From a virus, in the IMG/VR virus record IMGVR_UViG_3300008108_000023, positions 91,209 to 155,208 of that record: a stretch of 64,000 nt of DNA; one strand, 5' to 3'. A model generated the notes under the pieces. That model saw only the letters and a list, made by a program, of their open reading frames with translations. It had not been told where the DNA came from and ran no database searches. Position numbers and translations under genes: made by a program. Every line of letters begins with the position of its first letter. The stretch's first letter is position 1. Below are positions 1 through 63,125 of this stretch, piece after piece.

Positions 1-3000
1 TGGTTGGTGTGACTGTATTCGTTGGAGTGTTAGTAGGTGTCTGAGTTGGGGTAACAGTATTTGTTGGAGTATTGGTAGGAGTATTGGTAGGGGTTACAGT
101 ATTGGTAGGAGTATTGGTAGGGGTTACAGTATTGGTAGGAGTATTCGTTGGGGTTAGAGTTGGTGTAACAGTTTTGGTAGGAGTATTAGTAGGGGTTACA
201 GTATTTGTAGGAGTTACCGTAGGACTCAATGTGGGAGTCACCGTATTAGTTGGTGTATTGGTTGGGGTTACGGTGTTGGTTGGAGTGTTTGTAGGTGTAT
301 TAGTTGGAGTAACAGTATTTGTAGGTGTATTAGTCGGGGTATTGGTTGGTGTTACGGTGTTGGTTGGGGTTAAAGTTGGTGTGACAGTTTTTGTTGGTGT
401 ATTGGTTGGCGTAACAGTGTTTGTCGGAGTATTAGTTGGGGTGTTGGTTGGTGTATTAGTTGGAGTTACAGTGTTGGTTGGAGTGTTAGTTGGTGTTACG
501 GTATTGGTTGGGGTTACTGTGTTTGTAGGAGTATTGGTCGGTGTATTCGTTGGGGTTAGAGTTGGTGTAACAGTTTTGGTAGGAGTATTAGTAGGAGTTA
601 TAGTATTCGTTGGTGTGTTGGTCGGTGTAACAGTATTAGTTGGGGTGTTGGTTGGGGTGTTGGTTGGAGTAACAGTATTAGTTGGAGTATTAGTTGGGGT
701 GTTGGTTGGAGTAACAGTGTTTGTTGGGGTTACCGTAGGGCTCAATGTGGGAGTTACAGTTTTAGTAGGGGTGTTTGTTGGAGTTACGGTGTTGGTTGGG
801 GTATTGGTTGGTGTGTTAGTTGGTGTAACTGTATTAGTGGGAGTCACTGTAGGGCTCAATGTTGGAGTTACAGTGTTGGTTGGGGTGTTAGTTGGTGTAT
901 TGGTTGGTGTAACTGTATTCGTTGGAGTGTTTGTAGGAGTGTTGGTTGGGGTTACAGTATTAGTTGGTGTGTTGGTTGGAGTTAATGTAGGTGTAACGGT
1001 TCTTGTGGGGGTGTTGGTAGGGGTTACGGTATTAGTTGGAGTGTTTGTTGGGGTATTTGTTGGGGTTACGGTATTAGTTGGAGTGTTTGTTGGGGTATTT
1101 GTTGGGGTTACGGTATTAGTAGGGGTATTGGTTGGGGTATTTGTTGGGGTTACGGTATTAGTAGGGGTATTGGTTGGAGTTAATGTAGGTGTAACGGTTC
1201 TTGTGGGGGTGCTGGTAGGGGTTACGGTGTTAGTTGGAGTGTTGGTAGGTGTGTTAGTTGGCGTAACGGTGTTAGTTGGAGTCACAGTCGGACTCAATGT
1301 AGGTGTTACTGTATTTGTTGGGGTGTTGGTAGGGGTATTTGTAGGTGTTACGGTGTTGGTAGGTGTAACTGTTGGACTCAATGTAGGAGTCACAGTATTT
1401 GTTGGTGTATTTGTAGGTGTGTTAGTTGGGGTAACGGTATTAGTTGGAGTGTTGGTTGGTGTATTTGTTGGTGTTACTGTGTTAGTAGGGGTATTTGTGG
1501 GAGTATTTGTAGGTGTTACGGTGTTGGTAGGTGTAACTGTTGGACTCAATGTGGGAGTCACAGTTTTAGTAGGAGTATTTGTAGGTGTTACGGTGTTGGT
1601 AGGTGTGTTTGTTGGGGTATTGGTTGGAGTTACCGTATTCGTCGGAGTATTAGTAGGGGTGTTAGTTGGAGTTACAGTGTTTGTTGGTGTGTTTGTAGGG
1701 GTATTGGTAGGTGTTACTGTGTTAGTAGGAGTATTTGTAGGAGTATTGGTTGGTGTTACGGTATTTGTAGGAGTTACAGTTGGTGTTAATGTAGGAGTCA
1801 CCGTGTTTGTTGGGGTATTGGTGGGAGTATTTGTAGGGGTTACCGTATTTGTCGGTGTATTGGTTGGTGTTAAAGTAGGTGTAACCGTTCTTGTTGGAGT
1901 GTTAGTTGGTGTAACCGTATTTGTAGGAGTATTAGTAGGGGTGTTGGTAGGGGTTACAGTATTCGTAGGGGTATTGGTTGGTGTATTCGTGGGTGTGACA
2001 GTATTAGTTGGTGTTACGGTTGGACTCAGTGTAGGGGTTACTGTATTGGTTGGAGTGTTAGTTGGGGTATTTGTAGGTGTAACTGTATTTGTTGGGGTGT
2101 TTGTAGGTGTATTAGTTGGTGTAACTGTATTAGTTGGTGTATTCGTAGGGGTTTGAGTTGGTGTAACAGTATTTGTAGGAGTCACAGTCGGACTCAATGT
2201 GGGAGTCACGGTCTTAGTCGGTGTGTTAGTAGGGGTAACTGTGTTCGTAGGAGTTACCGTAGGACTCAATGTAGGGGTGACAGTGTTGGTTGGAGTATTG
2301 GTTGGTGTGTTGGTTGGTGTTACGGTGTTTGTAGGAGTTACTGTATTAGTAGGAGTGTTCGTAGGGGTATTGGTAGGGGTTACTGTGTTAGTTGGAGTGT
2401 TAGTAGGTGTATTGGTAGGAGTAACTGTATTGGTTGGTGTATTTGTGGGTGTAACAGTGTTAGTTGGTGTGTTAGTTGGTGTGTTGGTAGGAGTTACGGT
2501 GTTAGTTGGAGTATTTGTAGGTGTCTGAGTTGGTGTAACTGTATTCGTAGGGGTTACAGTCGGACTCAGTGTAGGTGTTACTGTGTTAGTCGGGGTAACT
2601 GTAGGTGTATTTGTTGGAGTTACAGTGTTGGTTGGGGTGTTGGTTGGAGTTACGGTGTTCGTTGGAGTATTGGTTGGTGTATTAGTTGGGGTTACTGTAT
2701 TAGTTGGAGTATTGGTTGGGGTATTGGTTGGAGTTACAGTCTTGGTTGGTGTGTTGGTTGGTGTTACGGTGTTTGTTGGAGTATTGGTTGGAGTGTTTGT
2801 GGGGGTGTTGGTTGGTGTTACGGTGTTTGTTGGGGTGACTGTATTGGTTGGAGTGTTTGTTGGGGTGTTGGTGGGAGTATTTGTAGGGGTTACCGTATTT
2901 GTCGGTGTATTGGTTGGTGTTAAAGTAGGTGTAACCGTTCTTGTTGGAGTTACAGTCGGACTCAATGTTGGAGTTACTGTATTGGTTGGTGTTAGTGTCG

Positions 3001-6000
3001 GGCTTAATGTTGGTGTAACAGTACTAGTTGGGGTATTGGTTGGGGTGTTGGTTGGAGTTACCGTATTGGTTGGTGTATTCGTCGGTGTATTTGTAGGTGT
3101 AACAGTATTCGTAGGTGTTACAGTTGGAGTATTGGTTGGGGTTACTGTGTTAGTTGGAGTATTGGTGGGGGTATTGGTTGGAGTAACAGTATTTGTTGGT
3201 GTCACAGTCGGACTCAATGTTGGTGTAACAGTTTTTGTTGGGGTATTTGTCGGTGTCTGAGTTGGTGTTACGGTATTGGTTGGCGTATTGGTAGGAGTAT
3301 TGGTTGGCGTATTTGTTGGAGTTACGGTATTAGTTGGTGTGACTGTATTGGTTGGGGTGTTAGTCGGCGTGTTCGTAGGGGTGTTGGTTGGTGTTACCGT
3401 ATTTGTTGGTGTATTAGTAGGTGTGTTAGTAGGTGTTACTGTATTTGTAGGCGTGTTCGTGGGAGTCTGAGTTGGTGTTACAGTGTTAGTAGGAGTGTTA
3501 GTTGGCGTGTTAGTGGGTGTAACAGTATTAGTAGGAGTCACCGTTGGACTCAATGTAGGTGTAACAGTATTGGTTGGTGTGTTGGTCGGAGTGTTGGTAG
3601 GAGTTACAGTATTAGTAGGAGTCACCGTTGGACTCAATGTAGGTGTAACTGTATTTGTTGGGGTATTTGTTGGGGTATTGGTAGGAGTTACTGTATTAGT
3701 CGGAGTGTTGGTCGGGGTGTTGGTTGGAGTAACAGTGTTGGTGGGAGTATTGGTTGGAGTGTTAGTTGGTGTATTTGTTGGGGTTACGGTGTTGGTTGGA
3801 GATACCGTATTTGTAGGAGTATTGGTTGGAGTGTTAGTTGGGGTTAGTGTTGGGGTTACGGTGTTTGTTGGGGTATTGGTAGGTGTATTGGTTGGTGTAA
3901 CGGTATTTGTAGGAGTAACAGTGTTGGTTGGAGTATTGGTAGGACTTAATGTTGGCGTATTAGTTGGGGTTACGGTGCTGGTTGGAGTCACTGTTGGACT
4001 CAATGTAGGTGTAACTGTATTTGTTGGTGTGTTGGTAGGAGTGTTTGTAGGAGTCACAGTATTAGTAGGAGTCACAGTTGGACTTAATGTGGGAGTTACT
4101 GTATTAGTTGGAGTGTTGGTAGGTGTGTTAGTTGGGGTTACTGTATTTGTCGGGGTATTGGTTGGGGTATTTGTTGGTGTAACGGTGTTGGTCGGAGTGT
4201 TTGTGGGAGTATTTGTAGGAGTTACTGTGTTCGTAGGAGTTACTGTAGGACTCAATGTTGGTGTTACTGTATTTGTTGGGGTGTTAGTAGGAGTGTTTGT
4301 TGGAGTCACCGTGTTTGTTGGGGTATTGGTGGGAGTATTTGTTGGTGTAACAGTATTTGTTGGGGTGTTAGTTGGGGTGTTGGTAGGAGTTACCGTATTG
4401 GTTGGTGTGTTAGTTGGGGTGTTGGTAGGAGTTACCGTATTGGTTGGTGTGTTAGTAGGAGTGTTTGTTGGTGTAACAGTATTGGTTGGTGTGTTAGTAG
4501 GAGTGTTTGTTGGTGTAACAGTATTGGTAGGAGTTACAGTTGGGGTGTTGGTTGGAGTTACAGTATTAGTAGGCGTATTGGTAGGAGTATTAGTTGGAGT
4601 TACTGTATTTGTAGAAGTATTGGTAGGAGTATTGGTAGGGGTGACAGTATTGGTGGGCGTATTGGTAGGAGTATTGGTTGGGGTGACTGTATTTGTTGGA
4701 GTATTTGTTGGGGTGTTAGTTGGAGTTACTGTATTTGTAGGAGTATTGGTAGGAGTATTGGTAGGGGTGACAGTATTGGTGGGGGTGTTTGTAGGAGTAT
4801 TGGTAGGGGTGACAGTATTGGTTGGAGTATTAGTTGGGGTGACTGTATTTGTTGGAGTATTTGTTGGGGTGTTGGTAGGGGTGTTGGTAGGAGTTACAGT
4901 ATTGGTTGGAGTAACTGTATTGGTTGGAGTGTTTGTCGGGGTATTTGTAGGTGTCAGTGTCGGTGTTACGGTATTTGTTGGAGTATTAGTAGGAGTGTTA
5001 GTTGGTGTAACCGTATTTGTTGGTGTATTTGTGGGTGTATTGGTAGGAGTAACTGTATTGGTAGCCGTATTGGTAGGAGTGTTGGTTGGTGTATTAGTTG
5101 GTGTGACTGTATTGGTCGGAGTTACCGTCGGTGTATTTGTTGGGGTTACGGTATTGGTAGGGGTTACTGTTGGTGTATTCGTAGGCGTGTTTGTTGGGGT
5201 TACGGTATTTGTTGGAGTATTAGTGGGGGTATTCGTAGGTGTATTGGTTGGTGTTACGGTGTTAGTTGGGGTATTTGTAGGGGTTTGAGTTGGTGTAACG
5301 GTATTGGTTGGAGTCACTGTTGGACTCAATGTTGGCGTTACCGTATTGGTAGGAGTATTAGTTGGCGTATTGGTAGGAGTAACTGTGTTGGTTGGGGTGT
5401 TGGTAGGAGTGTTAGTTGGTGTTACAGTATTAGTTGGTGTGTTAGTTGGTGTGTTTGTTGGTGTTACGGTGTTCGTAGGGGTGTTAGTAGGTGTCAGTGT
5501 TGGGGATACCGTATTGGTAGGAGTGTTAGTTGGTGTATTTGTAGGGGTTACCGTATTGGTAGGAGTATTAGTTGGTGTATTTGTAGGAGTAGCAGTATTA
5601 GTAGGGGTATTTGTTGGAGTATTGGTCGGTGTTACAGTGTTTGTTGGAGTGTTGGTTGGTGTTACAGTGTTTGTTGGGGTGTTTGTCGGAGTGTTGGTTG
5701 GGGTATTCGTTGGTGTTACAGTATTTGTAGGGGTTACGGTGTTGGTTGGAGTATTGGTGGGGCTTAATGTTGGGGTATTTGTAGGGGTTACGGTGTTGGT
5801 TGGGGTCGCTGTTGGAGTCAATGTAGGTGTAACTGTATTGGTTGGGGTATTGGTAGGAGTATTGGTTGGGGTAACAGTATTGGTAGGAGTAACTGTTGGA
5901 CTCAATGTAGGAGTAACTGTATTGGTAGGAGTGTTTGTTGGTGTATTGGTTGGTGTTACAGTATTAGTTGGAGTATTTGTTGGAGTTAAAGTTGGTGTAA

Positions 6001-8280
6001 CAGTTTTTGTTGGTGTATTAGTTGGGGTGTTAGTAGGAGTTACTGTATTGGTTGGTGTGTTTGTGGGAGTATTGGTTAATGTAACGGATGGTGTTACAGT
6101 GTTGGTTGGTGTTACCGTTGGAGTATTGGTGGGTGTTGGGGTGCTCGTTGGAGTTGGTGAGGGTAACATTGTATAATCAATGTCACAAGAAGGTGCTGGT
6201 GTTGGTGAAACCGTCACAGTTACACTTGGTGTATTTGTTGGAGTTACAGTATTGGTTGGAGTTACAGTATTTGTCGGGGTGTTTGTGGGGGTAACTGTAT
6301 TGGTTGGAGTCACTGTTGGACTCAATGTTGGTGTTACAGTGTTAGTAGGAGTGTTGGTCGGCGTGTTAGTTGGAGTATTGGTTGGTGTTACGGTGTTAGT
6401 TGGTGTTACCGTAGGACTCAATGTAGGAGTCACAGTATTGGTAGGTGTATTGGTTGGAGTATTGGTTGGTGTTACGGTGTTAGTTGGTGTTACCGTAGGA
6501 CTCAATGTAGGAGTCACAGTATTCGTTGGTGTGTTTGTAGGTGTATTAGTCGGAGTTACGGTGTTGGTTGGAGTTACGGTATTTGTGGGAGTGTTTGTAG
6601 GAGTGTTGGTAGGAGTGTTTGTTGGAGTTACGGTGTTGGTTGGGGTATTGGTTGGGGTATTGGTTGGTGTAACGGTATTTGTAGGAGTATTTGTAGGTGT
6701 CTGAGTTGGAGTTACTGTATTCGTCGGTGTGTTTGTTGGGGTGTTGGTAGGAGTTACGGTATTGGTAGGACTTAATGTTGGAGTGTTAGTTGGAGTATTT
6801 GTTGGAGTTACTGTGTTGGTTGGAGTATTCGTAGGTGTAACCGTATTTGTTGGTGTATTAGTTGGGGTGTTTGTAGGTGTATTAGTTGGTGTCACAGTTT
6901 CTGTTGGAGTCACTGTAACAGTATTGGTTGGTGTGACTGTATTGGTAGGGGTTACGGTGTTGGTTGGTGTAAGTGTTGGTGTTTCTGTGGGAGTATTTGT
7001 TGGTGTGTTGGTGGGGGTATTTGTTGGTGTTTCGGTTGGTGTATTTGTAGGTGTATTAGTTGGAGCTACCGTATTTGTTGGAGTTACAGTTGGAGTGTTA
7101 GTTGGGGTAACCGTTGGTGTAACAGTATTGGTAGGAGTATTGGTTGGGGTTTGAGTTGGTGTAACGGTTGCAGTATTTGTTGGTGTTAGGGTAGGTGTTT
7201 CAGTTTGTGTTACAGTGGGTGTATTGGTTGGAGTTACAGTATTGGTTGGAGTTACAGTTGAGGTATTAGTCGGAGTGTTAGTTGGTGTTATGGTGTTGGT
7301 TGGGGTATTGGTAGGTGTTTCGGTAGGGGTAACGGTTGGACTCAGTGTTGGTGTTACTGTGTTAGTCGGAGTATTAGTTGGGGTGTTGGTTGGTGTTTCG
7401 GTAGGGGTAACGGTTAGGGTTACGGTGTTGGTTGGAGTATTGGTTGGTGTTTCGGTTGGTGTTTCGGTTGGTGTATTAGTTGGGGTAACAGTATTGGTTG
7501 GAGTTACAGTTGGGGTAACAGTTGGGGTAACAGTTGGAGTTACGGTGTTGGTTGGGGTATTGGTTGGTGTTTCGGTTGGTGTTTCGGTTGGTGTATTAGT
7601 TGGGGTAACAGTATTTGTTGGGGTGTTAGTGGGTGTTTCAGTCGGTGTATTAGTTGGGGTATTGGTTGGTGTTTCGGTAGGGGTTACTGTATGAGTTGGT
7701 GTATTGGTAGGTGTTTCGGTAGGGGTTACCGTATTTGTTGGAGTTACAGTTGGAGTTTCGGTAGGGGTAACTGTATTTGTTGGGGTGTTGGTAGGTGTTT
7801 CAGTTGGTGTATTGGTTGGGGTTACCGTATTTGTTGGGGTTACAGTTGGAGTTTCGGTCGGAGTAACAGTTGGTGTCTCGGTTGGTGTAACTGTATTCGT
7901 AGGAGTTACAGTAGGTGTGTTGGCTGGTGATTCGGTTGGAGTTACTGTGTTAGTTGGGGTAACTGTAGGAGTTTCAGTTGGGGTAACCGTTGGGGTATTT
8001 GTTGGGGTATTGGTTGGAGTTACTGTGTTAGTTGGAGTAACTGTAGGAGTTTCAGTTGGGGTAACTGTAGGCTCGTTTGTTGGAGTATTAGTCGGAGTTA
8101 CGGTATTCGTAGGAGTATTTGTTGGAGTGATAGTATTGGTTGGGGTAACAGTAGGTGTTTTTGTAACCGTAGGTGTAACAGTAGGGGTTTTGGTAACTGT
8201 TGGGGTTGGGGTATTTGAAGTAAAGGTTGTTGGTGTTGGTGTTAATGATGGTGTAAGTGTTGGTGAAGGTGTAGGTGAAG
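1..8280 (-). repeat. Degenerate Thr-Pro coding repeats, about 8.3 kb
   Basis: Near-continuous array of 6-codon units ([16 protein letters not shown] and T-E-T-P variants) with no frame break: successive plus-strand shadow frames all keep the same phase. Units differ mostly at third codon positions of the minus frame. The array is therefore long diverged or kept from exact identity, while the protein repeat is conserved. TETPT units cluster at the N-terminal end (about 6960-8050), and TPTLSPT units dominate from about 200 to 6510. Confidence 0.9.
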
Positions 8281-8482
8281 GTGTAGGGCAAGGAATCTCA
8301 GCCACACAAGTTTTATCAAGTGACGGAAAATAAACTGAGTAAGTACCTAAGTAGTAGTTTGTGTCGTAATAATATGGCATCACGACAGTACCTAAATTCA
8401 AGGTACCGCCAGTACAAGGATAAAATGTGATAACACCAATTTCACCATCAAAATTACCTGTGTTTATTTTTATTAATGCCAT
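1..8482 (-). CDS. Giant Thr-Pro repeat protein, probable virion fibre or stalk (3' end outside window)
   Basis: The minus frame is open from the ATG at 8482 to base 1, at least 2,827 codons without a stop. The first ~50 residues are unique, containing a GGTLNLGT motif and tyrosines, and end in [12 protein letters not shown]. Everything after is repeats such as [13 protein letters not shown], interspersed with [11 protein letters not shown] (left and middle parts) and TETPT (mainly 6960-8050). The minus strand is the coding one: the frequent Phe/Leu alternation in the plus frame is silent on minus (ACN Thr codons), and variation falls at minus wobble positions. One non-repeat island lies near 6155-6212. 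Such Pro/Thr repeats form extended rods, so a tail fibre or adhesin stalk is inferred. The unique head domain resembles that of the gene at 63139-64000. The C-terminal (tip) domain is not in the window. Confidence 0.85.
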
Positions 8483-11500: not shown

Positions 11501-12817
11501 TAATCTTCGATAAAACTCATACTCAGCTTCAATTAAATTCGTACCGGTTGATACTCCGTCATAATTTGATTGTAATCTTGAATATAAAACATCATTTAGA
11601 CTATTTTCATCGAATAAATTTAATGTTGATAAACCTAAATTTTCTGCTAAGTTTTTTAAAAGTACATCAGGTAAATTATTAATTCCATCATAACTTACGT
11701 TTCTCATATAAGCTATGTTGTCTATGTATTTCTTTACACTATCAAAGCTTTGACCATATAATTGAAATACACTTTCAGCTCTTTTATCTTCGGTGTCAAA
11801 TTCAAATAACTGTGGTGCGGCTAAAAATCTAACCATTAGATTAGATTTATACACATCTATCTCATCAGCAATATCTTTTAATTTACCAACATATAAATCG
11901 TAATCAAAACCGGTTATTTGTATGTTATAACCATCATTAGATATTGGCCAAGTTATTACAACATCAACCAAAGATGTTTTTGAATTGTCTTGAACATCTC
12001 TCGGTACTTTAAATGATGAAGTATAAATTGGATTTGTTTCTCTATTTAAAAGTGATTCCTCTAAATCGTCTAACCCTTCGAAAAATTCTTCAACTAAACC
12101 ATCGTTTGGTCTTATCAATAAATTTTCTGAATATGTTGAACCAGTAAATGGTTGTCCATATACCTTTAAGTAAATTCTATTGTTTGTATTCGGTTCGCTG
12201 TATTCTAAAATTGGATATGGTGTGTTATTTGTAACAACAACATATTTTGTATAAGACGAATAAAAATTTCTTAATTCGTTTTCAGTTTCTGGTTTAACTA
12301 CTGAATTAGGCTCAACAAAAACTAAATCAAAAGGATTGAATATTTTACTTCTTTCGATGTAAAAAGTTGTGGTATTGGTGCTATCGTTATATGTTATTCC
12401 ACTAGCACTGTAATTAGAAACACCTATAGGACTGTCCGATAAGATTGAAATTCCACCCGGAAACTTGTTTATAATTCTAGTTAATGAAACTAAAATTCTA
12501 CTTGTTAACGAACCAAATAAAGATTTATCGGCATATTTTTTGTTGCCCTTAAACCTTACTTCGTCAGTTCTCTTTTTTCTTGGTGTTGCTGATGTTGTTT
12601 GAATACCCTCAACCTCTTTTAACGTATCTAATGTTAAAAATTGAGAGAATGGGTTACTCGTAAAATTTTTAGAATCTTTGTCAGGGATAGACTTATCAAG
12701 CGCAAATACGGTGTTGGTTAGTGCAGATGAACCATCAGTTATCTGTCTACCAACTAAGAAATCATTAAATGTTTCCGCTCCGCTTGACGCTTGACTCGGT
12801 ACTTTTCTCCTTGCCAT
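8573..12817 (-). CDS. Large baseplate/tail protein with P2 gpI-like region
   Basis: 1,414 residues. Residues ~310-480 are helical and include a stretch ending in KSKGTKSSIDFFLKFLG, which resembles the tail protein I/baseplate periphery family (conserved R..L......KGT pattern). The C-terminal ~700 residues are Thr/Ser/Gly-rich and beta-like, with many short cysteine-containing segments. Its start overlaps the stop of the upstream gene by one base (TAATG), so the two are probably translationally coupled. It sits at the distal end of the baseplate block next to the giant Thr-Pro gene, so a role in attaching fibres to the baseplate is reasonable. The gpI relationship is by motif only. Confidence 0.6.
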   Translation of the reverse strand: MARRKVPSQASSGAETFNDFLVGRQITDGSSALTNTVFALDKSIPDKDSKNFTSNPFSQFLTLDTLKEVEGIQTTSATPRKKRTDEVRFKGNKKYADKSLFGSLTSRILVSLTRIINKFPGGISILSDSPIGVSNYSASGITYNDSTNTTTFYIERSKIFNPFDLVFVEPNSVVKPETENELRNFYSSYTKYVVVTNNTPYPILEYSEPNTNNRIYLKVYGQPFTGSTYSENLLIRPNDGLVEEFFEGLDDLEESLLNRETNPIYTSSFKVPRDVQDNSKTSLVDVVITWPISNDGYNIQITGFDYDLYVGKLKDIADEIDVYKSNLMVRFLAAPQLFEFDTEDKRAESVFQLYGQSFDSVKKYIDNIAYMRNVSYDGINNLPDVLLKNLAENLGLSTLNLFDENSLNDVLYSRLQSNYDGVSTGTNLIEAEYEFYRRLLINLAHIYKSKGTKSSIDFFLKFLGAPEPLIRIDEYIYKVTSIPSSFNLQQDIYDAIQGNKRYSYATFDSTGFTYSKVYYSASTTFDREGYPVDEKTGLPRRAYNETENIFFGKGSGWYDITLSHRTPLVLDSSNSILTGNTKTIKTKNKNYTYGEEYFDLYRTLPGLDTGYELVSAVDNKDGKPIEDDYLLILNRKNIGIYISPSRGIDYDIFRQSRELLISFGTNTLLPQTGKTFAEFLDTFIHGLVTNSNKIRYKKNYIQLEDVYRDYISQTTGFTPYNQINVIEFVNKLSPYWPQLVEQLVPSTTQWTGGNLIENNVFGRPKYQYRYDCQPLEFIEELYPDFENVIEEDLENILGEENNFRGLINLTGVTYYPVIEIDGTVYGGADYTGLTSSMYVIVSGTSNTSNSAKLFDAQPFTGCTSGVTSGDTVNLSLICDYKDYLEPDVTKIKELWLSALSVLIDDVTITRNSAGYEPYSAFTGTTGQTYFSETIPLIKYTTYTDENGVEKVKFSSVKLGPNECSVVDYFDYRFDADYKITKNTNGISVKVYTDNTVYCDSNSGCTLVSDVFFEVIGYKTGIQQGSTWPFNIYANCVSGTNENADVYIQKVSDCVYKLTGFSENDVIDFNIVDAANKEVKFKIEGLQPKIEHDPCPTPSGKSHVELFSIVGYQGTISSPISVVSGATYCDNYTGYTIQPKVEYKSNFNYGLKCDSIVLVVDSGLTIDNQTTDDNIESYISGGTISGKSVCDLNVGEYVLSASYKQCTEYSHQQIVNGPVSGYSFTYNYQKLEITDIECLASIKKSIITGLTQNNTYEVFEVLPTTQLRVYTNRIIENFGTPTNSVYFFDDRFPEELQKKPTDFIEPCCDHPKELYNHGDYLINKYGKTIEVIDVDLNYCDTGLYFNLNFELDNTPLTDEFVVVFNGNNSDQILMKHKYDKHPNIGFNLGQYYIDANHCPTEPTNEELSSSIFDCP

Positions 12818-13744: not shown

Positions 13745-13753
13745 AATAAATAT
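13745..13753 (-). promoter_or_regulatory. Late-promoter-like motif ATATTTATT
   Basis: Minus-strand ATATTTATT about 10 bases before the ATG of the structural gene at 12817-13734. It is one of eleven copies found just upstream of virion genes. Confidence 0.5.
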
Positions 13754-21648: not shown

Positions 21649-21658
21649 CTATAAATAG
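21649..21658 (-). promoter_or_regulatory. Late-promoter-like motif CTATTTATAG
   Basis: Palindromic version of the TATTTAT motif, 4 bases before the ATG at 21644. The same CTATTTATA core precedes the genes starting at 44903 and 55059. Confidence 0.45.
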
Positions 21659-23986: not shown

Positions 23987-23995
23987 AATAAATAT
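23987..23995 (-). promoter_or_regulatory. Late-promoter-like motif ATATTTATT
   Basis: Minus-strand ATATTTATT immediately upstream of gp25. It follows the nrdA terminator, so gp25-gp6 would need its own promoter here. Confidence 0.55.
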
Positions 23996-24020: not shown

Positions 24021-24048
24021 AAAAAAATCCCAACCGAAGTTGGGATTA
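24021..24048 (-). terminator. Intrinsic terminator after nrdA, TTCG loop
   Basis: On the minus strand a 9-bp stem (AATCCCAAC/GTTGGGATT) closes a TTCG tetraloop and is followed by seven T. It lies between the nrdA stop and gp25, separating the metabolic unit from the baseplate unit. Confidence 0.85.
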
Positions 24049-32429: not shown

Positions 32430-32469
32430 AAAAAAAGTCAGATTACAAAATCTGACTCTCTTTTTTTTT
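32430..32469. terminator. Bidirectional intrinsic terminator, Dps-like gene/gp32 junction
   Basis: AGTCAGATT (32436-32444) pairs with AATCTGACT (32449-32457) around ACAA. There is an A-run on the left and a T-run on the right, so it works on either strand. For the minus strand it ends the unit containing the Dps-like gene. Confidence 0.85.
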
Positions 32470-33698: not shown

Positions 33699-33707
33699 AA
33701 TAAATAT
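33699..33707 (-). promoter_or_regulatory. Late-promoter-like motif ATATTTATT
   Basis: Minus-strand GATATTTATTAAAG upstream of the 68-residue gene. It shares GATATTTATT with the gp13 copy on the plus strand. Confidence 0.55.
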
Positions 33708-40068: not shown

Positions 40069-43000
40069 TATTGTGGTCTATAATAATTTAATTTATCTTT
40101 TACTTCGTTTGATGTTGAAAAGATTTGGTTCGCTTCATCTATTATTGTTTGGTTTGTTTCATCTGTTGTGGATGAAATTCCAAACTTAATTTCTTTATCA
40201 CTTTTCCTTTTTTTGAATTTGGTTAATTTAAATTTCTTTTCTTCTGGTTTTTCAACAAATTTATTTAATCTCTTTTTCAATTGATTTTTTAGAGGGTCTT
40301 TATATAACGAAGGGTCTTTTAGCTCTGATATAAATGCATCTACTTTATCGTATAACAATTGTTTCATCATAAATTCAAAATCCGCCGATTGTATTGTTGG
40401 ATTTAAAAATGTAATATTGGTAGATAGACCATCAACTAATTTCGGTGCATTTGTCTCAATATAATCAATACAGGTACTATATTCATTATATAATAAATCA
40501 GAAGTAAATCCACTAATTGCCACAGATTTAACAACACTGTCTTGTACTGTTGAATCCTTACCATTTTTAATAACGAAATTAACTCTATCTAAATCAGATA
40601 TTAGTTGGTTTCTTGATTTTTCAAGTTCATCTAATATTTGAGTGGAAACGGTAAGTTCATTTATTTTATTTTCAATTATCTCTTTAGTTATAAAATCTTT
40701 TAATTTAACATTCGTATCTGTAAGTATTGAGCCGGTCATTTCTTTATTAAAACCAACCATATCAACTAAATAAGTTGATGATGAATTGTTAAGAAAATTA
40801 GCTAATCCTGTTTTTAATCCAGTTGTGTAAACTGTTAATTCTTGTGTCTTTTTATATAAACCAAGTAATGATAATGTTTTACCCGGTGTTGGTGATGTTG
40901 AGGTGTAAATGTCGTATTGATTTATTGGTCTATATTCACCCTTAAATAAAAGAGCGGTAATATCTTTACCGTATTTTGTATAAACTTTGTTATACGTGTC
41001 TTGGTACTTATCAAAATAACTTTCTGTTGAGGCGAAGACGGATTTAATTATGTCCGTATATTTTATACTGTTACCATCAAGGGCTCCCATATAATTTCCA
41101 CCTTTTACATTTTTAGTATTTTGAGATTGATTGGTTTTGTTAATGGCATTACCATAAGTTTTGTTCAAATCTTCTAAAAATTCACGAGTAAATTCTTCGG
41201 CCTTCTTACCACCGATTGTTTCATTTGTTGCAATTGACCTTTCATCGTACATTTCGGTGTTGGCATAAAAATTAGATGATAGAGCGTTTTGAAGTCGTTC
41301 AACAGGTTTTGAAAGACCTTGACCACCAATAAAGTTTATCGATAGTGTGACCGAAGCAATCATTGGTTGTACACCAATACCTTCAGGGTTTAAATCCCAC
41401 AATATTTGACCTCCGTCATCAAAAGATATGTTCACATCTCTAATGACTATTTTTGAATGGTAAAAATCACCGATTCTTAATACACAAACAGGTGGTGGAC
41501 CAAAAGAGGTATTTCTTGCTCTAACATCCGAATCTTCTGATATACCTTTAATTGGTATGGTATCACCCGGTCTTATACATTGTTGTAAAAATGTAAGTCT
41601 CGCATTTAAACCTTCAGGTGTTGTTGAGTGAAACGCGGGATGAAAATATTTTAATTTTTCTTTAAGTGATGAAAAAACAACAGGGTCACTATCTTCTAAT
41701 TTTTTAAAGTAAAAACATTCAGATAGTGTTTTTGCAATGATTCTTTTTAATGGGTCAATTGCCGGTTTCCTTGTTGGTGGATTTACAACAACTTGTCCAT
41801 TTTCCTCAATTTTTGTTATGGGTGGTTGTGGTGCGGGTGTTTCGGGTTGTTTCTTCTCTGATTTATTATTGTACTTTAAAGACATTGCAGTTTGTCTACA
41901 ATAGAACGCAATTGGTGAGTATTGTTTTAATTTTGGTACTCTAACGAAATCTTTATTAACACAATCTTTATCAGGTTGGGTTCCAGTTAATGTTTCACCA
42001 TAATTGACCGATTCTACAATAATTTTAGTATCATGTTCAAAACCAAAATCTTTTGTACTATATTCTTTTACAATTACAATAGGTTCTCCTTTTTGAATTA
42101 TTTCTTTGTCGTTATCAGAATTATTTTTATTTACTAAATTTAAATTTGTTGGCCATTTTATTTGCCATTCTTTTTTTCCTCCGACAGCCGATAATCTATC
42201 AAAAATATCTTGAATTACGGAGTGACTTCTTCTTAGTGATAATCTTTCGTTGTAATCATTGGTTGCAACTGATGAACATGAAGATAAAATTTGAAATCTA
42301 ATTGTTTCCGCTGTTTTACCAGATATGTCTGATATTAAACTATTTAAACTAGATTCATATTTATTAAATGACACATCGGCTTCATCAAAATAATCACCGA
42401 TTTTTGTTTTTTGAGCATCAATGTCGGATTGTGTTATAACGTGATTAGCATCACCAAAAATAAAAGATTTTTCTGTTTTTACTTGAGTGTCTGTTTGAGA
42501 CAAACCAGTTAAAGTATTTAACGCGGCACCTAATTCATTAATATAAGCTTGTTTTTGGTCTTTGTAAGCTTTGTATAATTGTGTATAATTTTGTGTGGTA
42601 TCAACTTTATCTCTTGGTCCCGGTATATCGTTTTCATACTTTAATTTAATTATAACCTCATCAACAGCTTTAGAATCTGCTTCGTTACCTTGTGTTGTTG
42701 TGTTTGTTGGTGTTGTTTCTGTTGGATACTCAGTGGTTACCTTATATTGTTTGATAGTTTCGGGGTCTTGTCCTTGATTTAAGAAACTTTGAATTAGTTT
42801 TATATCGTTTGTATCTAATTGAGCGAATCTTCTGATTAATGCGTAGAAATCTAATTCCTCACACCCCGCAAAAAATGCGTTGATATAATTTTCCGATTCT
42901 TCATCGGACATTCCTTTAAAGTATTCTCTAACCAATAAATTTAAAATACTTGGGTGGTCCACTACAACCTTAAATGATAATTGACCGCTTCTAGAAGTAT

Positions 43001-44909: not shown

Positions 44910-44918
44910 TATAAATAG
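44910..44918 (-). promoter_or_regulatory. Late-promoter-like motif CTATTTATA
   Basis: 7 bases before the ATG of the 1,611-residue structural gene; same core as at 21649 and 55063. Confidence 0.5.
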
Positions 44919-46890: not shown

Positions 46891-46899
46891 AATAAATAT
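46891..46899 (-). promoter_or_regulatory. Late-promoter-like motif ATATTTATT
   Basis: Minus-strand ATATTTATTGATATG right before the tape measure start. It overlaps the last base of the small upstream gene. Confidence 0.45.
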
Positions 46900-48295: not shown

Positions 48296-48304
48296 TATAA
48301 ATAT
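48296..48304 (-). promoter_or_regulatory. Late-promoter-like motif ATATTTATA
   Basis: About 42 bases upstream of the gp19 ATG, followed by AGAAAG. A copy with a longer leader than most. Confidence 0.5.
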
Positions 48305-51496: not shown

Positions 51497-51505
51497 AATA
51501 AATAT
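51497..51505 (-). promoter_or_regulatory. Late-promoter-like motif ATATTTATT
   Basis: Upstream of sheath as GATATTTATTGATAAA, a 16-base identity with the plus-strand copy in front of gp13 (58029 onward). Confidence 0.6.
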
Positions 51506-51555
51506 CTTTGTTTTTAGCAAAGATTCCCTTGATTTTTTTAAAAATGGCACTTATG

Positions 51556-51579: not shown

Positions 51580-51595
51580 TATATTTATCTTTATC

Positions 51596-51772
51596 ATGAA
51601 AAACACCCTAAAAAACATAAAGGTTAGTGAAAATCACCACCAAATGTTAAAAGAATATTGCGACAAAAATGGATTAAAAATTTATAAGGTTGTTCAGAAA
51701 TGGATTGATGAAGTTTGTAAAACAGGAAAGGTGAATGATTCACCTAAGAAAAAAGATATCTATGGAGATTAA
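51596..51772 (+). CDS. Small ribbon-helix-helix-like protein
   Basis: 58 residues on the plus strand, opposite to all neighbours. The sequence starts MKNTLKNIKVSENHHQMLKE, with CDKNGLKIYKVVQKWIDEVC after it. The short strand (NIKVS) followed by two helices is the pattern of an Arc/MetJ-type RHH DNA-binding protein. The C-terminal tail is basic (KKKDIYGD). It ends 5 bases before the convergent stop of the 75-residue gene. Candidate transcription regulator, by pattern only. Confidence 0.6.
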   Translation: MKNTLKNIKVSENHHQMLKEYCDKNGLKIYKVVQKWIDEVCKTGKVNDSPKKKDIYGD

Positions 51773-55062: not shown

Positions 55063-55072
55063 CTATAAATAG
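55063..55072 (-). promoter_or_regulatory. Late-promoter-like motif CTATTTATAG (palindromic)
   Basis: Just upstream of the gp14-like ATG on the minus strand. As a palindrome it also reads on the plus strand ahead of the helicase gene (start 55113). Confidence 0.5.
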
Positions 55073-57998: not shown

Positions 57999-58029
57999 TA
58001 ATATTTGGAATATTAAAACAAATATACAG

Positions 58030-58038
58030 ATATTTATT
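58030..58038 (+). promoter_or_regulatory. Late-promoter-like motif ATATTTATT (plus strand)
   Basis: GATATTTATTGATAAA precedes the gp13 start at 58054, in the same orientation as the gene. The only plus-strand structural gene has the motif on plus. Confidence 0.6.
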
Positions 58039-62531: not shown

Positions 62532-63109
62532 TTAATATATTTTATTTAATACAAAAATGTCACTATATATTTTATTTGCGGGGTCACTTGAACTAAACTG
62601 AGCTGTTACTTCAATTGTATTTGAAACGGTGGTATCAAACGTAGTACTATTAACCGTATTGAACGCAAACCCACCTTGTGAACCATTAGATTGTTTTGTT
62701 GTATGAAATACACCAAGAGCAACTATACTGGCAACACCCGCAACACCGAGAGACCTAATTGTGAAATTTATAGAAAGTTGCCAAACGTCATCAACTGATG
62801 TTGTCATATTTTGAAGTCCAGAATCTGCTAAAATTACCGAACCAGTTTTAACTTTTATTCTTATATCATCACCATTTTTTGCGGATAAAAGACCACCAAA
62901 ATCCGCTCTAAAGCTATCACCAACCCTAAATCCATTAGCGGGAACACTTAAGGTTCCAACCCCACCGTCAATAACACTTAATTCTGATGTTGTACCACTT
63001 ATAGTTACACTATTTCCTGTTTGAGTGTGGTTCCACCTTGAGAAACAGCAAACTCCGCATTTGCGGTTAAACCTGTAAGTTCGGGTAATTGGGATATTGG
63101 TAAATTCAT
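62532..63109 (-). pseudogene. Tail fibre-type protein with apparent frameshift
   Basis: The ATG at 63109 opens with MNLPISQLPELTGLTANAEF and AVSQGGTTLKQ, then stops at 63005. The next frame (-1) continues as GNSVTISGTTSELSVIDGG, then VGTLSVPANGFRVGDSF and RIKVKTGSVILADSG, ending at 62532. Both halves are characteristic, in that order, of one phage minor tail protein. Adding one A to the AAA at 63020-63022 joins them into ~193 residues (GGTTLKTGNSV). So this is a sequencing/assembly indel in a homopolymer, a real disruption, or programmed -1 frameshifting. Confidence 0.7.
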
Positions 63110-63116
63110 CTTATTT

Positions 63117-63125
63117 TATAAATAT
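63117..63125 (-). promoter_or_regulatory. Late-promoter-like motif ATATTTATA
   Basis: Minus GATATTTATAAAATAAG just upstream of the ATG at 63109. Confidence 0.5.

Follow-up and report, generated by a model that had tools for sequence, protein, structure and literature searches.

The window, that is, the whole 64,000-nt stretch analyzed here, forms the right end of a virus record of 155,208 bp. It holds 12 copies of MTATTTATW, 11 of which lie 3–41 nt ahead of a same-strand ATG. A first-pass annotation had listed eleven [AC]TATTTATW sites as a candidate late promoter, and we found all eleven in place, each on the same strand as the gene it precedes, including the one at 58030–58038(+). Its list needed amending: the TATTTATC box at 51582(+) had been overlooked because of the W in the motif, and the gene at 63109 is shortened by a deletion. 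The features are as follows, with the gap counted from the 8-mer TATTTATN to the ATG.

63117–63125, minus strand: late-type box ATATTTATA ahead of the F5/8-C virion-like gene (ATG 63109)
58030–58038, plus strand: late-type box ATATTTATT ahead of the gp13-like head-tail adaptor gene (ATG 58054, gap 15)
55064–55072, minus strand: late-type box CTATTTATA ahead of the 170-aa gene (ATG 55059, gap 4, near-leaderless)
51582–51588, plus strand: box TATTTATC ahead of the small divergent ORF 51596–51772 (gap 6)
51497–51505, minus strand: late-type box ATATTTATT ahead of the tail sheath gene (ATG 51458, gap 38)
48296–48304, minus strand: late-type box ATATTTATA ahead of the tail tube gene (ATG 48254, gap 41)
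46891–46899, minus strand: late-type box ATATTTATT at the 651-aa gene (ATG 46887, gap 3; as a promoter it would give a leaderless mRNA)
44910–44918, minus strand: late-type box CTATTTATA ahead of the 1611-aa gene (ATG 44903, gap 6)
42357–42365, plus strand: motif copy within a gene of the opposite strand
33699–33707, minus strand: late-type box ATATTTATT ahead of the operon 33686–32490 (gap 12)
32436–32457, no strand assigned: terminator-like hairpin with T runs on both sides, between the late operon 33686–32490 and the SSB/replication cluster
24026–24047, minus strand: terminator-like hairpin with a T run, immediately ahead of the gp25 box
23987–23995, minus strand: late-type box ATATTTATT at the gp25 baseplate wedge gene (ATG 23983, gap 3)
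21650–21658, minus strand: late-type box CTATTTATA ahead of the 1374-aa gene (ATG 21644, gap 5)
13745–13753, minus strand: late-type box ATATTTATT ahead of the 305-aa gene (ATG 13734, gap 10)

The gp13-like ORF matched phrog_211. Its motif had been described as lying on the plus strand and as identical to that of the sheath gene; indeed, there are exactly two copies of the 16-mer GATATTTATTGATAAA, one at 58029(+) and one at 51506(-) ahead of sheath. The gene at 63109 encodes only 34 aa in this contig, compared with 210 aa in the near-identical record G018; a 56-bp deletion near 63025, which may be a real variant or an assembly error, accounts for the difference. The hairpin adjoining the gp25 box indicates that a new transcription unit begins there, and the motif copy at 42357 is probably a chance occurrence and not a promoter. 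As the annotation had also noted for all of them but nrdA, the motif does not stand close ahead of the genes for SSB/gp32, the uvsX-like protein, rnh, the helicase, nrdB, nrdA, or the DNA polymerase. An Rfam search of the window returned no matches, and a sigma-70 consensus scan of two window stretches gave 108 and 100 matches, about the level of shuffled sequence. An inverted repeat, ATCTTTG-CTAAAAA-CAAAGAT (window 51500–51530, minus strand), abuts the sheath box and is retained in many relatives and gone in others.

The whole-phage motif search that the annotation had proposed yielded 31 copies in the record, 19 of which begin no more than 50 nt upstream of a same-strand ORF start, and these upstream windows make up 2.8% of strand positions (binomial, 3e-22). 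In non-coding DNA, 15 of the 17 copies were upstream of genes, compared with 23% expected (2e-8); the reverse complement showed the mirror pattern there (4 versus 15, against 15 versus 2 for the motif). When all 7-mers in the 60-nt upstream regions of the record were counted, TATTTAT ranked first, with 28 occurrences against 6.2 expected under a first-order model. The remaining 91 kb of the record contain 19 more motif copies, several of them ahead of genes of unknown class. That the box is merely A/T-rich sequence arising by chance in a genome of 34% G+C is extremely improbable. In favor of chance, the motif consists of A and T only, and 12 of its 31 copies in the genome fall outside the 50-nt upstream windows; however, TATTTAT was enriched upstream of genes rather than equally frequent at random A/T-rich positions, permuted and all-A/T 7-mers behaved differently, the motif is oriented toward the gene, and in relatives the box is kept while the flanking sequence diverges.

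To follow the box beyond this record, relatives were gathered via the sheath protein (at least 80 loci), and the box was upstream of sheath in all 68 loci inspected. Counting distinct upstream sequences, we found it ahead of sheath in 35 of 38 (the three misses being truncated genes), tail tube in 34 of 35, the gp13-like gene in 20 of 21, the 651-aa gene in 19 of 20, the 1611-aa gene in 13 of 14, the 170-aa gene in 30 of 33 (the other cases resemble misassigned starts), and the small divergent ORF served by the 51582 box in 33 of 36. Most misses were genes cut by contig ends or starts set too far upstream, while ahead of one tube gene and a few small ORFs the promoter appears to have been truly lost. 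The box was found in 0 of 21 DNA polymerase upstreams from distinct relatives and in 0 of 14, 2 of 31, and 3 of 41 distinct upstreams of operon-internal genes. Over all loci it preceded 29.8% of likely first genes versus 2.3% of operon-internal genes, a contrast that is partly compositional because internal genes have coding DNA upstream. TATTTAT was the most frequent of all A/T 7-mers ahead of first genes.

A second class of promoter was recognizable in the same genomes. Among the 351 genes of this record and the G018 arms, TTTG-N17-21-TAnnTTTG stood ahead of 26 versus 0.7 in simulations, with best spacers of 19–20. TTTG at -33 with TAnnTTTG at -7 is the Bacteroidota sigma-A promoter (PMC9723704, PMC7366714), and the host therefore most likely belongs to the Bacteroidota. 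These host-type promoters serve a gene set other than that of TATTTAT: the 33 TA[AT][AT]TTTG boxes and the 63 TATTTAT boxes had no gene in common (chance, 0.001). The late boxes were without TTTG at the -33 spacing and did not match TAnnTTTG. Bacteroidota-type early promoters of the form TTTG-N19/20-TATATTTG were also seen in L323, in L324, and at record positions 12553, 17751, 23885, and 32955, and their -33 element often carries a TTTGGATAT-like extension.

We then examined the distance from the 8-mer to the ATG at 515 distinct sites. The gap was 3 at 101 sites, 4 at 62, 5 at 22, and 6 at 10, and was below 3 at only 6 sites; further modes lay at 10–15 and 36–42, with an overall range of 3 to about 48 nt. 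Twelve gene families contributed at a gap of 3, 12 at 4, 8 at 5, 6 at 6, and 1 at 7, compared with three at most for any single value below 3. In the sequence logo, most of the information fell in the box and in a short, A-rich stretch at the start, sites with longer gaps were A-rich at the fourth to sixth base past the 8-mer, and no -33/-35 tetramer was found upstream of the late boxes. The ATGs of two families with gaps of 3–6 are real starts, because the codons directly after them vary chiefly at the third position and almost no in-frame ATG occurs further downstream; in the 1611-aa gene, the codon-position pattern shows coding from ATG 44903. From the sharp lower limit of 3 nt we infer that late transcription would start about 4 nt past TATTTATN and that many late mRNAs would be leaderless. 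Published 5'-end mapping places the host-type box at -12 to -5 (PMC9723704), and host-type promoters with the -33 TTTG never had an ATG gap below 4, as expected if a start site on the A of AUG sets the limit. Leaderless mRNAs are rare in Bacteroidota, amounting to 5.5% in F. psychrophilum (PMC9723704), and 3.7% of 5' UTRs are shorter than 10 nt in B. thetaiotaomicron (PMC7366714). A weak pyrimidine/C bias (TTYY) was visible 12–15 nt upstream of the first T of the box, about 24 nt ahead of the inferred start.

The many copies 3–6 nt ahead of an ATG could also suggest a translation-initiation element, a Kozak-like context in an SD-less host, instead of a promoter, and flavobacteria are reported to be without SD sequences and to rely on sequence identity around the start instead (PMC6847099). 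This explanation is very unlikely: the gap runs from 3 to about 48 nt and has a lower limit only, and the box is almost never found at operon-internal genes and is absent from host-type genes. In Microcystis phage Mel-JY01 (L146), moreover, the box is mostly 32–36 nt (about 33 nt) upstream of the ATG and SD-like sequences occupy the interval, as would suit a host that uses SD sequences. A translation signal was thus rejected on the gap range and the operon placement.

In T4, the late promoter TATAAATA is read by gp55, together with the co-activator gp33, a small protein of low conservation, and the activating sliding clamp gp45, and its transcription is late and replication-dependent. As the annotation had pointed out, the box described here is not the T4 one; the difference lies in the two central bases (TATAAATA versus TATTTATW), and TATTTATA matches the reverse complement of the T4 box exactly. 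Because the polarity toward the gene is clear, this match is probably incidental. The same exact match is what would speak for a T4-type box on the other strand directing transcription away from the gene, a reading with almost no probability that was rejected on polarity. Many sites end in T and hence do not read TATAAATA on the other strand, TATAAAT was not enriched in the upstreams of relatives, and the gap limit and the initiator lie on the gene side.

The box was also detected in other phages. TATTTAT was the top upstream 7-mer in Flavobacterium phage vB_FspM_immuto (laboratory host, Flavobacterium sp. LMO8; 16 versus 1.3 expected) and in Mel-JY01 (10 versus 1.4 expected), and T4 passed through the same pipeline returned its TATAAATA core. 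The gaps between box and ATG in immuto were mostly 11–25 nt. In a second set of relatives, consisting of contigs chosen by the gp55-like protein (below) alone, TATTTAT ranked first in two large pools (169 versus 37 in the distant set, and 74 versus 16) and second in a small four-contig pool; P-values from pooled relatives are only descriptive, because related sequences are not independent. In a blind test, genes near the sheath gene of the uncultured phage LR756508 had no TATTTAT upstream, and pelagiphage HTVC008M showed no TATTTAT signal and few copies of TATAAAT. A literature search for the TATTTAT motif in phage promoters retrieved no relevant paper and none describing this promoter in immuto.

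The annotation had further suggested a search for a gp55 equivalent. This search identified a 232-aa protein with a weak sigma-2 match that is encoded in hundreds of relatives; in the near-identical 288-kb record G018, its gene lies at 40520–41215, about 11 kb past the right end of the window. The window's own record, which ends ahead of this locus, is without the gene, and the copies in near-identical records are 95% identical to the query used. Alignment to T4-type gp55 with hhalign gave 93% and an E of 2.8e-7 over 158 columns, and 38 of 40 members matched the PHROG late sigma factor (best, 9e-6). A structural model (pLDDT 82) aligned with T4 gp55 (7d7c) with a VIA-align Z of 10.4 (rmsd 6.1, 121 aligned), while plain Foldseek gave only an E of 0.06 to a sigma factor. 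These sequence and model comparisons indicate that the protein has a sigma-2-like domain homologous to T4 gp55. Among 50,697 phage records, matches to it occurred only in immuto (4 records), where the gene, immuto26A_153, is annotated as hypothetical, in Mel-JY01, and in LR756508, the most distant carrier (E 3e-4).

The C-terminal part of the gp55-like protein, about 65–95 residues, has no T4 counterpart. By eye, these C termini are basic and helical and have no acidic-hydrophobic tail. A sigma-4-like C terminus, suspected from the sequence, was rejected: a model of this part alone had no convincing structural match (lowest Foldseek E, 0.5; highest VIA-align Z, 5.9, with unrelated proteins), and the Pfam model of region 4 did not hit the protein. 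The T4 clamp models PF02916 and PF09116 matched nothing in five family records, immuto, or Mel-JY01, while T4 itself was found; a diverged clamp could escape these models. T4-style clamp activation is therefore not supported. In relatives, a 124-aa protein gene just after the gp55-like gene (for example, L150:2721–3095) has a leaderless box, with a gap of 3 in 66 of 107 sites.

A second candidate reader is encoded in the record, outside the window: a 270-aa RpoD-like sigma that has both region 2 and region 4. That this protein reads the box, or that host sigma-A reads it as a variant of TAnnTTTG, is an alternative that we regard as improbable. The phage does encode a full sigma-70, and TATTTATW agrees with TAnnTTTG at four of six fixed positions and has almost the same spacing to the inferred start. 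However, immuto and Mel-JY01 share the box, and a search for sigma-70 region 2 gave no match in either; the same genomes have separate -33 TTTG promoters that do not overlap with the box, and the late boxes are without that element. The RpoD-like sigma was rejected as the family-wide reader, being undetectable in immuto and Mel-JY01, and the gp55-like protein is therefore the shared candidate. From homology and co-distribution, the best-supported mechanism is that the gp55-like protein most likely reads the box; common descent alone could also account for the co-distribution. The gene for the RpoD-like sigma (record 64590–65402, minus strand; L004:4890–5702) apparently follows a late box at 66678, within an operon that also holds a spanin-like ORF, and this sigma might be produced late and perhaps carried in the virion.

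The strand, position, and conservation of the box, its placement at first genes of operons, its mutual exclusivity with host-type promoters, and the presence of a gp55 homologue in the same species all support the annotation's late-promoter reading. We consider it probable, on sequence evidence, that [AC]TATTTAT[AT], found shortly ahead of most virion operons, is a core (-10-type) late-class promoter element in a large family of T4-related Bacteroidota phages, with the gp55-like sigma as its reader. Promoter function is very likely, and the late class, judged from the genes served, is likely. Host core RNA polymerase carrying the phage gp55-like late sigma factor would recognize the box without a -35 element and would initiate on an A about 4 nt past TATTTATN, placing the box at about -11 to -5. 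Genes with their ATG at the start point would give leaderless mRNAs, others would have leaders of about 7–12 or about 35 nt, and early genes would use the host sigma-A signal TTTG-N19/20-TAnnTTTG.

With the T4 late promoter this element shares an 8-bp A/T box, the lack of a -35 element, virion genes on both strands, and an encoded gp55 homologue. It differs in having central TT instead of AA, in the inferred position of the box (about -11 to -5, whereas the T4 consensus begins at -13), in gaps from 3 nt upward (14–28 in the T4 stretch examined), in the extra helical C-terminal part of the gp55-like protein, and in the lack of a clamp detectable by T4 clamp models. The box appears to work like a T4 late promoter but departs from the TATAAATA consensus, so that it is not a strict member of that class. 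The cyanophage late promoter NATAAATA of S-PM2 and Syn9 likewise belongs to T4-related phages with late virion genes and a gp55 homologue, but it retains the T4 core ATAAATA and makes no use of TATTTAT (PMC2984593). The Bacteroidota sigma-A promoter, genuine copies of which occur elsewhere in this phage, resembles the late box in its distance to the start site and in an A/T-rich box opening with TA, but the late boxes are without the -33 TTTG and the terminal G and serve other genes. Immuto, too, has TATTTAT as top upstream 7-mer and a gp55-like gene but longer gaps and no detected RpoD-like sigma.

These results provide a concrete candidate late promoter and a candidate late sigma factor for a group of T4-related phages that is abundant and almost uncultured, with immuto as the one cultured flavobacterial representative. 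They indicate that not every T4-related phage uses the TATAAATA box, and a divergent gp55 with a changed box makes a natural pair for learning how gp55 reads its promoter. Leaderless virion mRNAs are predicted, and the box may be a practical marker of virion operons in environmental contigs. A broader proposal, which we put forward tentatively and think rather doubtful, is that a clade of Bacteroidota phages transcribes its late genes in a T4-like way, with an altered box, a gp55 bearing an extra C-terminal domain, no recognizable T4 clamp, and perhaps clamp-independent initiation, and that a large part of its virion mRNAs start at the AUG, leaderless translation being a main route to virion building in SD-less hosts.

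Apart from the promoters, the left end of the window (1–8482) lies in a 4248-aa minus-strand open frame (record 86944–99690) that is antisense to long plus-strand ORFs (694 aa, 601 aa, and others).
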